From an uncultured Bifidobacterium sp. (GTDB lineage Bacteria > Actinomycetota > Actinomycetes > Actinomycetales > Bifidobacteriaceae), in the NCBI GenBank assembly GCA_937876495.1, contig CALEGL010000085.1:1-12488 (forward strand): a stretch of DNA of 12,488 bases. Direction: 5' to 3'. Numbering within the stretch: position 1 is the first letter of the stretch; every line of letters starts with the position of its first letter. Made by a program: the position numbers and the translations under genes. This document shows positions 4,042 to 12,488 of this stretch, piece after piece. The notes beneath the pieces were generated by a model that saw only the letters and a program-made list of their open reading frames with translations, was not told the origin of the DNA and did no database searches.

Positions 4042-4384
4042 AGAGCTTCTCGAGTTCCCGGACGTCGGGCGCCGCCTCCGTTCCGGGATCCGTCGTCGGT
4101 CCGTCGTCGGCGCCGAGGCATTCGCGCATCGACGTGGTGACGATGAGGAAGCCGACGCGGGACAGGGCCTTCTTCACGGCGCTGAGCTGCGTGATCGTGT
4201 CACGGCAGGACCGTCCCTGCTCGATGCCGGCGATGACGGCGTCAAGCTGTCCCGAGGCTCTTTTCAGCCTGTTGAGGATGGCTCTGCGGGAGTCGGCGTC
4301 GTCCGCGCCCTTCCGCCCGGCGTCGGCCGGGGGCGCGGATGCGGTCCGCGCCCCGGGGAGCGTTCTCATTCGTGTGTCGTTCAT
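4025..4384 (-). CDS. cstR: CsoR-family repressor, CstR-like (persulfide-sensing type)
   Basis: A small all-helical DNA-binding repressor. The family core begins at about residue 33 with RRAILNRLKRASGQLDAV and carries Cys60 and Cys89, 29 residues apart, as in known CsoR and CstR proteins. In copper-sensing CsoR the position four before the second Cys is His; here it is Ser85. Loss of that copper ligand, plus the segment CRDTITQLSA resembling staphylococcal CstR, points to a sensor that forms disulfide or polysulfide links when sulfane sulfur rises. An extension of about 32 residues precedes the core and an acidic tail follows it. The ATG lies two bases after the stop of the upstream reductase/rhodanese gene, with GGAAAGG inside that gene as ribosome site, so the two are cotranscribed. 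The likely operator is at 6077-6092, giving autoregulation. Confidence 0.85.
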   Translation of the reverse strand: MNDTRMRTLPGARTASAPPADAGRKGADDADSRRAILNRLKRASGQLDAVIAGIEQGRSCRDTITQLSAVKKALSRVGFLIVTTSMRECLGADDGPTTDPGTEAAPDVRELEKLFLMLA

Positions 4385-4386
4385 GT

Positions 4387-6036
4387 CTACAGGTACCTTT
4401 CCAAAGTGTTCATTCCCCCGGCCAGCACGGTCGAGTCGATTCCCGCCGATTCCAGTACGCGATGCGCGAGGTAGGCCCTTTTGCCGGAGGCACAGACGAC
4501 GAGCACGCGCCGTCCTGCTGCGTTCGCTCGGACTTCGTCGAGACGCTCCCGCATCCGTGTATGGGGGATGTTGATCGCCCCCGGCAGATGCCAGCGGTCG
4601 AATTCCGCGGGTGTGCGCACGTCGAGGATCATCATCCCGCCGATCGCGGCGGGAAGCTGCTCCGGCTCGGTCTGCCGGAGCATACCGGTGGACAGGTCGT
4701 CGGCCATGTAGCCGACGAAGTTGACGGGGTCCTTCGCGGATCCGAATGGAGGGGCGTAGGCGAGGTCGAGGTCGATGAGGTCCTCCGCCCGCATGCCGGC
4801 CCTGATGGCCGTGGCCAGGACATCGATGCGCTTGTCGACGCCGTCGCCTCCGGCGGCCTGGGCGCCGAGAAGCCTGCCGTCCGCCCCCACATGGACCCTG
4901 AGGTCGACGTCCTGGGCGCCCGGATAGTATCCCGCGTGCTGGGAGGGCTGCAGATGCAGGGTGTGGAAGGGGATGGACGCCCTGTCCAGCGCCTCGCCGG
5001 ACGCTCCCGTCATGCCGATGACGGTGCGTCCTATGCGCACGATTGCGGTCCCCACGACGGATGGCAGGGGTCTGGCGGAGTCAGGGGAGAGGATGGCGTC
5101 GGCGACCAGTCTGCCGTCCCTGTTCGAGGGCCCCGCCAGCGCCAGCGGATGCCGGGCTCCGGTGACGGCGTCCGTCCGAAGCGTCACGTCGCCGACGGCC
5201 CAGACTGACGGGAGGGACGTGCGGCCGTGGGCGTCCATGTCGATCCACCCGTGGTCGGCCTTTACGCCGGCGGACACGAAGGGTTCGGAGTTGGGCCGCA
5301 CGCCGGTGGCCACCACGACGGCGTCCGCTTCGACGCGGGTCCCGTCCGACAGCATGGCGACGGCGGAACCGCCCTCGTCGGACAGCGAGACCACCGTCGT
5401 CGACATATGCGACGAGACCCCGAGGGCCGCCAGCGCCTGGATTGCATAGGTCGCGATGTCCGCGTCAAGGGGCGACAGGGGATGGGGGCCTCCGTCGACG
5501 ATGGTCACGACGGCGCCGGCGTCGGCGAGGTTCTCGGCCGCCTCCAGCCCGATGAAGCCCGCGCCGATCACGAGGGCGCGGAGGGGTGCGGGACCGGAGT
5601 GGTGCGTGAGAACCTCGCGAAGCGCCACGGCGTCGCCGATGGTCCGCAGCGTGTGGACGCGCGGCGAGTCCAGTCCGGGGACGGGAGGAAGGGCCGCCCT
5701 CGTCCCGGTGGCGATGACGAGCGCGTCATAGGGGACGTCCCTCTCGCCGTCGGCGGTGGAGACCTGCACGGCGCGTTCGGCGGGGTTGAGACCCGTGACG
5801 GTGCTTCCGAGCCTCACGTCGATGTTCAGCGAAGCGAGAAGCGTCTCGGGCGTCTCGACCTCGAGGGCCTCGCGGTGGGGTATGGTCCCTGAGACGTAGT
5901 AGGGCAGCCCGCAGCTGGCGCTGGAGACGTGCCGGGTGGATTCGAGGACCGTGATGGACGCCTTCTCGTCGAGGCGCCGGGCGCGTGCGGCGCAGCTCAT
6001 TCCGGCTGCCGTTCCTCCGATGATGACCAGGTGCAT
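4387..6036 (-). CDS. CoA-disulfide reductase with C-terminal rhodanese domain
   Basis: A cytoplasmic flavoprotein that uses NAD(P)H to reduce CoA disulfide or CoA persulfide/polysulfide. Such fusions serve sulfane-sulfur detoxification. The 549 residues fit CoADR-rhodanese fusions. An N-terminal FAD loop reads IGGTAAG (6-12). The single redox Cys is Cys42 in SSASCGLPYY. A second nucleotide-binding loop reads VIGAGFIGLEAAEN. The dimerisation domain has HAGYYPG and YAPPFGSAKDPVN, both carrying the expected Tyr residues. The rhodanese domain begins near ILDVRTPAEFD, and its active loop is CASGKR with catalytic Cys515. The ATG at 6036 is preceded by GAAAGGA, and MHLVIIGG is the natural start of the FAD domain; a much longer open frame upstream is not coding. 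It is the first gene of the minus-strand module, with a CstR-type operator about 40 bases upstream. Confidence 0.92.
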   Translation of the reverse strand: MHLVIIGGTAAGMSCAARARRLDEKASITVLESTRHVSSASCGLPYYVSGTIPHREALEVETPETLLASLNIDVRLGSTVTGLNPAERAVQVSTADGERDVPYDALVIATGTRAALPPVPGLDSPRVHTLRTIGDAVALREVLTHHSGPAPLRALVIGAGFIGLEAAENLADAGAVVTIVDGGPHPLSPLDADIATYAIQALAALGVSSHMSTTVVSLSDEGGSAVAMLSDGTRVEADAVVVATGVRPNSEPFVSAGVKADHGWIDMDAHGRTSLPSVWAVGDVTLRTDAVTGARHPLALAGPSNRDGRLVADAILSPDSARPLPSVVGTAIVRIGRTVIGMTGASGEALDRASIPFHTLHLQPSQHAGYYPGAQDVDLRVHVGADGRLLGAQAAGGDGVDKRIDVLATAIRAGMRAEDLIDLDLAYAPPFGSAKDPVNFVGYMADDLSTGMLRQTEPEQLPAAIGGMMILDVRTPAEFDRWHLPGAINIPHTRMRERLDEVRANAAGRRVLVVCASGKRAYLAHRVLESAGIDSTVLAGGMNTLERYL

Positions 6037-10072: not shown

Positions 10073-11065
10073 TCACACGACGCGGTTGACCCGTGACCCG
10101 GTGAAGAAGGCCGCCATGGAGCGCACCACCTGCTCCGTCAGTCCCCGGTAGGCCTCATCCGTCCGCCAGGCGACATGGGGGGTGATGACCACTCCGGGGA
10201 TGCCCAGCAGAGGGTCGTCCTTGGGAAGGGGTTCGTGCTCGAACACGTCGAGTCCCGCCGGAACGTCCCCCCGCAGCAGACGTCGGGTGAGGGCGCCCTG
10301 CTCGATGATCTCCGCGCGCGCGGTGTTGACGAAGAGGGTTCCCGGACGCAGCGCCTCGAGGTCACGCCCGGTGATGACGCCCCGCGTCGAGTCCAGAAGG
10401 GGCAGATGCAGACTGACGACGTCCGAGGAGGCGAAGAGGTCCCGGATCGAGTCGACGGGAGTGACGGCGTACCGTTCCACTGCATCCGCATGCAGATGCG
10501 AGTTCCACGCGTGGATTCTCATGCCAAAGCCGCTGGCGATGGAGGCCATGGCCTGCCCGATGCCGCCGAATCCGACGAGCCCCAGGGTCCGGCCGTGCAG
10601 GGAGATCCCTTCGGAGCCCAGCCAGTGGCCGGCTCTCACGTCCGCATCCAAGGCGCCCGCGTGGCGCGCGAGCTCGAGGACGAGGGCCATGGCATGCTCG
10701 GCCACGGCATGATCGCCGTAGCGCACGACGTTGCACACGGCGATGCCGTCGCGTTCGGCCGCCTGGACGTCGATGTAGCTGGCCACCCCCGTGCCTCCGA
10801 AGGCGAAGCATCGCACATGGCTTCGTAGACGTGCGTAGATGCCCTCCGTCACGTGGAATCCGATGACCATCACGGCGTCCGCTCCCTCGCAGCGCCGCAC
10901 GATCTCGTCGGCGTCCAGGGTGGCGTCGGTCCACATGCGGACGCGGGCGACGTCGTGAAGCAGGCCGAGGACGTCGGAGAAGGGCTTCACCATGGAGGGA
11001 ATGACGCTGGGCATGACCACAAGAGGGAGGTCCGTGCGGTCCTTCTGTGTTTCGATGACATCCAT
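10073..11065 (-). CDS. D-2-hydroxyacid dehydrogenase, phosphoglycerate dehydrogenase-like
   Basis: A NAD-dependent oxidoreductase interconverting a 2-hydroxyacid and a 2-oxoacid. With the start at ATG 11065 it has 330 residues. The Rossmann loop is GFGGIG (165-170). The catalytic triad is visible as Arg250 (VNTAR), Glu278 (FEHEPL) and His297 (TPHVAW). No C-terminal ACT or regulatory domain is present, so a SerA role is unproven; glyoxylate, hydroxypyruvate or phosphoglycerate are all possible substrates. A GTG three codons upstream (11074) is an alternative start. The ATG is preferred because AGGGTGGG precedes it, or because TAGGGT seven bases upstream would give a leaderless message. The gene converges on the transporter operon with 38 bases between and is divergent from cbs. 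If it does feed serine synthesis it would supply the co-substrate of cystathionine beta-synthase, which is inference. Confidence 0.85.
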   Translation of the reverse strand: MDVIETQKDRTDLPLVVMPSVIPSMVKPFSDVLGLLHDVARVRMWTDATLDADEIVRRCEGADAVMVIGFHVTEGIYARLRSHVRCFAFGGTGVASYIDVQAAERDGIAVCNVVRYGDHAVAEHAMALVLELARHAGALDADVRAGHWLGSEGISLHGRTLGLVGFGGIGQAMASIASGFGMRIHAWNSHLHADAVERYAVTPVDSIRDLFASSDVVSLHLPLLDSTRGVITGRDLEALRPGTLFVNTARAEIIEQGALTRRLLRGDVPAGLDVFEHEPLPKDDPLLGIPGVVITPHVAWRTDEAYRGLTEQVVRSMAAFFTGSRVNRVV

Positions 11066-11189
11066 GCCGCCCACCCTAGGACATGCCGGGAACGGGCGGA
11101 TTGCCTTCGTGCCGGCCGATGCGGCGGAGAGGGGGATTCGGGGTTTCGGAACGACCCGGGCATCGACACGCCGTGCGTTCCTCCGGTGC

Positions 11190-11195
11190 TATGGT
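11190..11195 (+). promoter_or_regulatory. -10 box for a leaderless Cys-leader transcript
   Basis: TATGGT fits the actinobacterial TANNNT pattern and ends seven bases before the leader peptide ATG at 11203, so transcription should begin at or next to that A. No ribosome site precedes the ATG. A TCGACA at 11163-11168 resembles a -35 but is 21 bases away, too far to be convincing. Confidence 0.5.
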
Positions 11196-11202
11196 GTGAG
11201 CC

Positions 11203-11235
11203 ATGGCTTATCTCTCATGTTGCTGTTGTCGCTGA
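11203..11235 (+). CDS. Poly-cysteine leader peptide MAYLSCCCCR
   Basis: Ten codons ending in TGA, with four consecutive Cys codons (TGT TGC TGT TGT, 11218-11229) placed just before the stop. Such a run is far from chance expectation in a ten-residue ORF, and it sits upstream of a transsulfuration gene. Poly-Cys upstream ORFs that sense cysteine supply are known from mycobacteria. The ATG has no Shine-Dalgarno sequence but lies seven bases after TATGGT, so it is probably read from a leaderless RNA. Ribosomes would stall on the Cys codons when charged Cys-tRNA is scarce. The codons TGT-TGT-CGC form one arm of a hairpin (11225-11232 with 11257-11264), coupling stalling to RNA folding. The peptide itself is unlikely to have another job. 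Confidence 0.75.
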   Translation: MAYLSCCCCR

Positions 11236-11359
11236 CCGACGCCTTCGGGCGAGCGGGCGACAACGCATAACTGGAGAAGGGGAGATAGGCGGCGTCCTTT
11301 CGACGCCATGTCTTCGTGCATGTCCGTAGGGCATGTCGCCGGCATGTCTGTATGCCGGC
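11206..11359 (+). promoter_or_regulatory. Putative cysteine-responsive attenuator leader RNA
   Basis: Several pairings can be drawn. GTTGTCGC (11225-11232, over the last Cys codons) pairs perfectly with GCGACAAC (11257-11264) and encloses CGCC-TTCG-GGCG (11240-11251). An outer helix of nine pairs, one of them G-U, joins 11206-11214 to 11282-11290. GGCGTC/GACGCC (11291-11307) is a further perfect hairpin. The alternative GGCGACA (11256-11262) pairs with TGTCGCC (11334-11340), which would disrupt both the Cys-codon hairpin and the terminator-like hairpin at 11338-11359. A ribosome stalled on Cys codons would free 11256-11262 for that alternative and allow read-through into cbs. Full translation and release would restore the first and last hairpins. 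The pairings are seen; the switching model is inference. Confidence 0.6.
11338..11359 (+). terminator. Terminator-like hairpin of the attenuator
   Basis: GCCGGCAT pairs with ATGCCGGC across the loop GTCTGT, a perfect and GC-rich 8-bp stem. It lies about 200 bases before cbs and overlaps by three bases the alternative pairing partner at 11334-11340. Only TT follows, not a full T-run, so termination may be weak or factor-assisted. Confidence 0.45.
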
Positions 11360-11391
11360 TTCCGTGGAACGATGACGATGGAGTGCAATAA

Positions 11392-11560
11392 CAGCCAGCC
11401 ATCGGCATTGGCGTGTCTCCCTTCAGGCCTGTTCCAGACCTGCGTCGCCCTCCCGCTCGGGGACGGACGGACCCGCGCCTCGCGGCATCCGCGACCGGGA
11501 ATCCTTCAATGTCCACAGAAACCCGAAAACCAGGAAGAACGCTTCCGGAAACGAGACATC
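11392..11560 (+). other. Remaining cbs 5' untranslated region
   Basis: No gene is seen in these bases. They include a perfect hairpin TCGCGG-CAT-CCGCGA (11480-11494) and, close to the cbs start, GGAAACGAG as a modest ribosome site. An open frame from ATG 11510 runs out of frame over cbs and is a shadow. Confidence 0.4.
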
Positions 11561-12488
11561 ATGACCATCCACGACTCCATCACCGACCTCATCGGCGGCA
11601 CTCCTCTGGTCGCGCTGCACCACGTCACCGACGGGGTGCGCGCCACCATCGCCGCCAAGATCGAATATCTCAATCCCGGCGGATCGGCCAAGGACCGCAT
11701 CGCAGAGCGCATCATCGACGCCGCCGAACGTTCCGGGCAGCTGAAGCCCGGCGGCGTGATCGTCGAGCCCACCAGCGGGAACACGGGCGTCGGTCTCGCC
11801 CTCGTCGCCCAGCAGCGCGGCTACCGCACCATCTTCGTCGTGCCCGACAAGGTGTCCGAATCCAAGCGCGCCGTGCTGCGCGCCTACGGCGCCGAGGTCG
11901 TCGTCGCGCCCACGAACGTCGAACCCTCCGACCCGCGCTCCTACTACAACGTCTCGGACCGTCTCGCCTCGAGCATCCCCGGCGCCTTCAAACCCAACCA
12001 GTACTCGAACCCGAACGGGCCTCTGAGCCACTACGAGACCACGGGCCCCGAGATTTGGCGCGACACCGACAGGCGTGTCACCCATCTGGTGGCGGGCATC
12101 GGCACCGGCGGGACCATCTCCGGGACGGGACACTACCTCAAGGAGGTCTCCGACGGATCCGTCGTCGTCGTCGGATCCGACCCGCAGGGGTCCATCTACT
12201 CCGATCCGGACGACGTCCATCAGTACGACATCGAGGGGGTGGGGGAGGACTTCTTCCCCGAGGCCTTCGACCGGAGCATCCCCGACGAGATCGTCCAGGT
12301 CACCGACGCCGAGGCGTTCGAGATGACCCGACGCCTCGCCTCCGAGGAGGGGCTGCTCGTCGGAGGGTCCTCCGGGATGGCCGTCGTCAGCGCCGTGAAG
12401 TACGCGAAGGAGCATGACCTCGACGAGAACCAGCTCATGGTCGTCATCCTCCCCGATTCGGGACGCGGATACCTCGAGAAGATCTTCA
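11561..12488 (+). CDS. cbs: Cystathionine beta-synthase, 3' end outside the window
   Basis: A PLP enzyme joining serine (or O-acetylserine) and homocysteine to cystathionine, or making cysteine directly; cytoplasmic, in transsulfuration. 309 codons are present. MTIHDSITDLIGGTPLV is a classic start. The PLP lysine is Lys44 in NPGGSAKDR. TSGNTG (71-76) and GTGGT (181-185) bind substrate and cofactor phosphate. The block EGVGEDFFP (225-233) is typical of CBS rather than plain cysteine synthase. GGSSGM and PDSGRGYLEKIF close the catalytic core at the window edge. Whether tandem CBS regulatory domains follow cannot be seen. The ATG was chosen by family start and the upstream GGAAACGAG. Expression is probably governed by the poly-Cys leader at 11203-11359. 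The neighbouring divergent gene is a hydroxyacid dehydrogenase. Confidence 0.93.
   Translation, partial: MTIHDSITDLIGGTPLVALHHVTDGVRATIAAKIEYLNPGGSAKDRIAERIIDAAERSGQLKPGGVIVEPTSGNTGVGLALVAQQRGYRTIFVVPDKVSESKRAVLRAYGAEVVVAPTNVEPSDPRSYYNVSDRLASSIPGAFKPNQYSNPNGPLSHYETTGPEIWRDTDRRVTHLVAGIGTGGTISGTGHYLKEVSDGSVVVVGSDPQGSIYSDPDDVHQYDIEGVGEDFFPEAFDRSIPDEIVQVTDAEAFEMTRRLASEEGLLVGGSSGMAVVSAVKYAKEHDLDENQLMVVILPDSGRGYLEKIF

Follow-up and report, generated by a model that had tools for sequence, protein, structure and literature searches.

Upstream of a cystathionine beta-synthase gene (cbs) in an uncultured Bifidobacterium sp. lies a short open reading frame (uORF) that closes on a run of Cys codons, and the question raised by this locus is how translation of so short a reading frame might set the expression of the gene that follows. 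The window, by which we mean the whole stretch of 12,488 nucleotides of contig CALEGL010000085.1 that was analyzed, has the features collected in Table 1. The name cbs was taken from a preliminary description of the locus and from the literature; the best match of the gene is a B. thermophilum record (84% identity), and the seven best named records matching it are all from Bifidobacterium. In the B. thermophilum locus (L001), the ORF that comes after cbs (4111-5301) resembles a cystathionine gamma-synthase/lyase, as judged by eye. Our answer, to which we assign a probability of roughly 0.77, is that the uORF is leaderless and belongs to a four-region translational attenuator of cbs that senses charged Cys-tRNA.

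Table 1. Features of the window and the basis on which each was assigned
Feature	Position	Strand	Basis or remark
D-2-hydroxyacid dehydrogenase-like ORF	10073-11074	opposite strand	upstream of cbs; named by appearance
Extended -10 promoter element TGCTATGGT, predicted	11187..11195	+	7 nt before uORF ATG; consensus match
Poly-Cys uORF, MAYLSCCCCR*	11203..11235	+	ORF reading; Cys-rich uORF at 77/78 genus cbs loci
Region 1, outer part (uORF codons 2-7)	11206..11223	+	pairs with 11265-11267 and 11280-11290
Inner hairpin of 1:2, including 8-bp stem 11225-11232/11257-11264 and tip 11240-11251	11225..11264	+	folding, covariation
Region 2 (3' arm and tail of uORF hairpin)	11250..11290	+	alternative partner: region 3
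Three local hairpins (11291-11307, 11318-11336, 11338-11359)	11291..11359	+	probability 0.96-1.00 in all four folds
Region 3, putative anti-RBS, alternative partner of region 2	11413..11459	+	folds; boxes at similar distance in other clades, by eye
Region 4 (cbs ribosome-binding site and ATG)	11547..11563	+	11553-11559 pairs with 11413-11419 in the free fold
cbs (cysteine synthase/cystathionine beta-synthase family)	11561..12488	+	cut by window end

The ten-codon reading frame with four Cys codons was confirmed where it had first been described, with one Arg codon separating the Cys run from the stop. Conservation of the Cys run across related genomes, a check proposed at the same time, is borne out: we collected 78 cbs loci from 77 of 112 genus genomes (cbs match of at least 71% identity; the other 35 genomes were left out), and 77 of them have a Cys-rich uORF. 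At least three consecutive Cys codons lie shortly 5' of the stop at 76 loci, and at the 77th (L146), which reads CCRCCR, four Cys codons are kept with an Arg inserted. The one locus lacking such a uORF (L163, genome G023) holds an additional cbs copy that shares 73% identity with the query; a Cys leader is absent from the 1 kb 5' of it. Removal of duplicate elements (L137 and L158) and short leaders (L164-L166) from the 76 loci gave a set of 71 leaders, which measure 191 to 767 nt from the first Cys codon to cbs, the cbs start being ambiguous in four. The Cys run is four codons long in 38 of them, three in 32, and five in 1; Arg and a stop follow it in 68/71 and Leu and a stop in 3/71. The bare DNA pattern (three Cys codons and a TGA within 12 nt) was not enriched, occurring 22 times in the genome versus 26 times for a reversed-pattern control; the position of the uORF before cbs is the conserved part, and the Cys pattern by itself is not rare.

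A TANNNT motif lies 6 to 8 nt 5' of the uORF ATG in 70/71 leaders (7 nt in 61), the TG extension of this -10 element is present in 63/71, and an SD-like sequence upstream of the uORF was seen in 0/71. A promoter listing that requires both hexamers called no promoter at the window uORF. Since a -10 element sits this close to the ATG and no SD-like sequence accompanies it, the uORF is probably leaderless.

The perfect 8-bp stem originally drawn at the end of the uORF (11225-11232 with 11257-11264) is present, with a mean pair probability of 0.80 in the free fold, and proves to be a fragment of a longer uORF hairpin (1:2). In the free fold of the window, 11206-11216 pairs with 11280-11290 (11 bp, probability 0.47) and 11221-11223 with 11265-11267. 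When the cut-out element is folded at minimum energy, pairing between the conserved tail and the uORF arm is seen in 70/71 leaders; the uORF, starting at approximately codon 3 and running through the stop, thereby makes up the 5' arm of a single long hairpin. From 20 sequences we built a covariance model of this hairpin (R1), which found matches in 73/112 genus genomes; the matches among those listed fall at cbs (coordinates checked by eye), and the remaining ones lie on the opposite strand at the same sites, plus one weak opposite-strand match further down the G048 leader. Covariance analysis, also suggested in the preliminary description, gave a divided answer, favoring the uORF hairpin arms through two-sided changes and not through further pair types. 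With 20 rows, an initial count gave little signal by two measures (reached by 216 and 192 of 500 shuffles). In a larger alignment (70/78 loci taken, of which a threshold left 69; 59 distinct rows), 90.2% of cells were paired versus 29.6 to 47.5% when slid, 49 cells had changed on both sides versus 19.0 in shuffles (reached by 0/500), and two-sided changes were found in 10/27 pairs (reached by 7/500), all counts from an alignment fitted to the model and hence biased towards the model structure; further pair types in the same 59 rows were not above shuffles, 424/500 of which reach the count. The covariation is seen in the relatives' helix homologous to the pairing of 11206-11223 in the window. 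Rfam 15 gave 0 matches at gathering over the whole window and 0 at E up to 1 in 11150-11600, and no relative was found on viral contigs. We also considered and rejected a second conserved hairpin immediately following the uORF hairpin; its mean z was -0.8 against mono-nucleotide shuffles, with 19/71 leaders below -1.64, and it is not a general feature.

Beyond the hairpin the leaders align poorly, and recurring boxes before cbs look, by eye, complementary to both the tail and the ribosome-binding site (RBS). A duplex between the whole element and the downstream leader was rejected as well; z fell below -2 in 18/71 leaders, 15 of them with MQ/MH/MR uORFs (the others are L098, L099, and L101). 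This result led to narrower tests of the tail (region 2) and the RBS (region 4), in which the best duplex of each tail or RBS with every leader's downstream stretch was computed for 64 leaders and compared with 5000 permutations. The tail prefers its own downstream stretch by -2.9 kcal (centred; z -10.4, 0/5000) and the RBS by -2.5 kcal (centred; z -8.6, 0/5000), in permutation tests that retain some relatedness among leaders; for 43 representatives sharing <25% of 8-mers, z is -8.2 for the tail and -6.7 for the RBS (0/5000 each). Six control segments showed no co-evolution, with z from -0.8 to +2.2 (reversed tail, -0.8; reversed RBS, -0.5; cbs coding start, 1.3; promoter, -0.3; uORF 5' arm, 2.2; mid-leader, 0.0). 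A seventh segment, the stop-codon and tip part of the hairpin, gave z -6.0, a signal that we attribute to the MQ-type clade.

Single-leader shuffles gave a weaker signal, with a mean z of -1.48 for 2:3 and -0.96 for 3:4 in 67 leaders (L120, L121, L128, and L162 having been dropped for an ambiguous cbs start) and with 24/67 and 17/67 leaders, respectively, reaching 5% singly. The set of 64 also leaves out, by choice, three leaders of unusual length, of which L103 and L105 give no support to 2:3 against shuffles (z 1.15 and 1.33) and L134 supports it (z -5.7). When the 2:3 and 3:4 sites were located separately, they overlapped by at least 4 nt in 24/67 leaders, where 9.8 were expected and the maximum in 1000 trials was 22. 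Comparative sequence analysis shows several of the features by which an attenuator of this kind is recognized: a leader ORF with matching codons (77/78 loci), the placement of that ORF in arm 1 of a 1:2 hairpin (70/71 leaders), and co-evolution of regions 2 and 4 with the leader stretch that would hold region 3, in line with pairings 2:3 and 3:4.

Folding, computed at equilibrium and not co-transcriptionally, is consistent with a switch. When the uORF was blocked as by a stalled ribosome in the 64 leaders, mean SD accessibility rose from 0.379 to 0.472 (33 up, 8 down; p 9e-6), 2:3 pairing rose from 0.27 to 0.53, and 3:4 pairing fell from 0.45 to 0.33; an equally large block placed elsewhere left mean SD accessibility at 0.380 and the pairing means unchanged. 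With shuffled spacers the SD gain was 0.008 to 0.041 versus 0.093 for the native leaders and the SD was less hidden in the free state (0.50 versus 0.38), the paired comparison with shuffled spacers being modest (p 0.03; 32/64 leaders exceed their own shuffles). Placing the block at the stop codon exposes the RBS to nearly the same degree as placing it at the Cys codons (0.451 versus 0.472), and the model therefore needs termination to be brief.

In the window itself, folding without a block yields a mixture, in which the outer helix of 1:2 has a probability of 0.47 and the helix of 3:4 one of 0.34. The RBS helix 11413-11419/11553-11559 (7 bp) is gone from the minimum-energy fold when 11203-11232 is blocked; 11278-11287 then pairs with 11414-11423 (10 bp), 11271-11276 with 11432-11437 (6 bp), 11263-11267 with 11441-11445, and 11250-11257 with 11452-11459. 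The stall block reduces the 3:4 share from 0.28 to 0.02 and raises the unpaired fraction of the SD from 0.32 to 0.50, and the control block likewise opens the SD (0.32 to 0.48) and cuts the 3:4 share (0.28 to 0.08). Neither pairing reaches significance in the window by itself (13/100 shuffles reach its 2:3 pairing and 89/100 its 3:4 pairing), and the argument for it depends on the related leaders.

In the mechanism that we propose, transcription would begin at or adjacent to the uORF ATG and ribosomes would load straight onto the uORF. With charged Cys-tRNA plentiful, the ribosome would read through the Cys codons and depart, whereupon region 1 would fold on region 2 into the long hairpin, leaving region 3 free for the cbs RBS (region 4), and cbs would be poorly translated. 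With Cys-tRNA short, the ribosome would stall at the Cys codons and mask region 1; region 2 would then pair with region 3, and the cbs RBS would be released. Stalling, the direction of the response, and a translational output are the parts of this scheme that we infer.

The main rival is Rho-dependent transcription attenuation, in which the uORF hairpin and its translation would gate the access of Rho to a C-rich leader before cbs. Rho was put forward for B. longum in 2005, in the sections of that report dealing with its leader (PMC1262725), and in 68/71 leaders the final 150 nt contain more C than G, a count made without genomic control. We nonetheless judge this reading unlikely, as it leaves unexplained both the co-evolution of the RBS with the downstream leader (z -8.6) and the coincidence of the 2:3 and 3:4 sites (24/67 versus 9.8). 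An untranslated cbs mRNA could be a Rho target too, so that Rho and the translational switch may act together.

Less likely still is that the uORF and hairpin are kept for some other reason, such as mRNA stability or translation coupling without Cys sensing, with the long-range pairings serving only to fold the leader. The mechanism that we propose does rest on sequence and folding, and because the Cys codons lie in arm 1, pairing alone could conserve some of them; against this, the leaders retain three to five Cys codons ahead of the stop despite the varying run length, L146 retains its four around the inserted Arg, and adjacent-Cys uORFs before cbs recur outside the genus, as described below.

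The preliminary description had mapped regions 3 and 4 much closer to the uORF, with 11256-11262 pairing either within the uORF hairpin or with 11334-11340 and the latter excluding a GC-rich hairpin at 11338-11359. The 7-nt complementarity exists but is not confirmed as a working pairing, its probability being 0.0 in the free and Cys2-blocked folds, and a perfect 7-nt complement to arm 2 occurs within 120 nt in 7/71 leaders. The hairpin (11338-11346/11351-11359) folds with a probability of 0.96 and stays folded in every state; its exact stem sequence is found in 1/71 leaders (the window alone), no U-run follows it, and a listing of terminator-like sites has none there. Such sites occur between the hairpin and cbs in 8/71 leaders, at 11 positions where 5.2 are expected from shuffles. 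A conserved GC-rich hairpin with a U-run, exclusive with an antiterminator, by which an intrinsic-terminator attenuator would be recognized, is absent, and in the modeled folds the local hairpins of 11291-11359 are spacer, not switch. A classical trp/his-type intrinsic-terminator attenuator at 11338-11359 is on these grounds very improbable, even though a stable hairpin and a 7-nt alternative pairing do exist there and terminator-like positions reach, in few leaders, about twice their shuffled number. What stands of the earlier interpretation is a translation-coupled attenuator with mutually exclusive pairings before cbs, most likely sensing charged Cys-tRNA; what is not supported is the terminator type and the placement of regions 3 and 4, which in the window folds are 11413-11459 and the RBS at 11553-11559. 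The evidence points to attenuation that is translational and not terminator-based.

Leaders with MQ/MH/MR uORFs depart from the general arrangement, as their 2:3 and 3:4 sites overlap in 2/23 cases versus 22/44 elsewhere. A CGYCGGT box (longer form GGGAACGTCGGTTCACGA) lies 48 to 133 nt before cbs in 22/24 of these leaders and in 0/47 others; the partner of this box is the stop-codon side of arm 1, and the stretch flanking the box pairs with arm 2. In whole-leader minimum-energy folds of three leaders (L148, L151, and L155), the hairpin pairs with an anti-hairpin. An inverted partial copy of the hairpin, matched by the model on the opposite strand, was observed downstream, before cbs, in L148, L151, L152, and L155; in the 22/24 leaders that have it, the CGYCGGT box is the mark of such a copy.

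The model was rebuilt on 69 sequences and run on 151 family genomes; it found matches in 66/151, from 4/16 genera (GTDB genera), one of which (g7) was matched solely at E 0.03. Of 17 further sites, 16 precede cbs with a Cys uORF, come from three other genera, and had been in neither earlier test; the remaining one (G076, 28 bits), in the window's own genus, has no cbs within 1.5 kb and was set aside. One identical leader was dropped, leaving 15 distinct leaders, among which L187-L189 are near-copies, as are L192 and L193. For 12/15 tails at most 11/78 other leaders give a better partner, for the RBS anywhere from 0 to 78 of the 78 do better, and the 2:3 and 3:4 sites overlap in 9/15 leaders. 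A concerted change in the Ser codon of the uORF, the tail, and box 3 separates L187-L189 from L191 (TTTCC/GGAAA/TTCCA versus TTTCA/TGAAA/TTTCA). L189 and L190 come from one genome (G169, 9% contamination) with two copies of leader and cbs start, identical in the part read, which reflect either a duplication or an assembly effect.

Outside the genus (L009-L078, Microbacteriaceae and others), a fixed rule without chance control found an adjacent-Cys-codon uORF at 22/72 cbs loci. In the short leaders there, the uORF lies 94 to 199 nt before cbs and often has a GTG start. The three short leaders of the genus (L164, L165, and L166) span 98 to 118 nt from Cys run to cbs and have no model match; in the fold computed for L164, a CAACAAC stretch immediately 5' of the SD is the partner of the Cys codons. 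Across the 22 outside-genus leaders and these three, a stall block raised SD accessibility from 0.49 to 0.61 (18 up, 3 down of 25; p 7e-4), and a stop block did not raise it (0.51). A direct two-state switch of this sort may have preceded the four-region form.

On balance we favor the broader view that these leaders constitute an undescribed Bifidobacteriaceae RNA family, in which a leader several hundred nucleotides long, carrying a leaderless poly-Cys uORF, would control cbs translation as a complete four-region attenuator. Box 3 and both of its partners would have been rewired in step across lineages, and one clade would have adopted a second design, an inverted downstream copy pairing with the whole uORF hairpin. 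This bears on cysteine synthesis in gut bifidobacteria and gives an Rfam-type family to annotate. We take BLD_0914 of B. longum to be this same cbs gene. Passages of PMC11540073 concerned with BLD_0914 (cysK/cystathionine beta-synthase) describe its expression as very low and the gene as perhaps not functional, and those on qRT-PCR describe a cysteine-containing medium, in which the switch would be expected to be off; this could explain the low expression.

The preliminary description knew of no poly-Cys uORF with this layout at cbs in such organisms, but a poly-Cys leader was published upstream of B. longum cbs in 2005 (BMC Microbiol; PMC1262725), in a report whose sections on the leader describe other attenuator elements as missing and leave the mode of regulation unknown apart from suggesting Rho. 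The gene, the genus, and a Cys run adjoining the stop are the same in both cases; whereas those sections name one Bifidobacterium species, the present analysis adds the long hairpin, regions 2, 3, and 4, and genus-wide spread, and so a specific map for the regulation mode left open in 2005. No title or abstract among the literature matches listed describes this cbs-leader structure, most subscription papers lying outside the search; the poly-Cys uORF at cbs was already known, and the mechanism map is new as far as searched.

In mycobacteria, cysteine-responsive polycysteine leaderless sORFs (Canestrari et al. 2020, Mol Microbiol) have been reported, in the relevant parts of the articles, to act by attenuation on downstream translation (PMC9031893, PMC9094748, PMC13236596). 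The bifidobacterial uORF resembles them in being a short ORF, predicted here to be leaderless, with consecutive Cys codons before a cysteine gene; compared by description only, it differs in its long leader (191-767 nt) and predicted four-region arrangement. That arrangement is like the one in ermC, in which the leader peptide lies in arm 1 and a stalled ribosome frees region 2 for region 3, releasing the SD from 3:4. We claim no sequence relation between the two, and whereas the signal for ermC is a drug, the signal predicted here is a shortage of Cys-tRNA.
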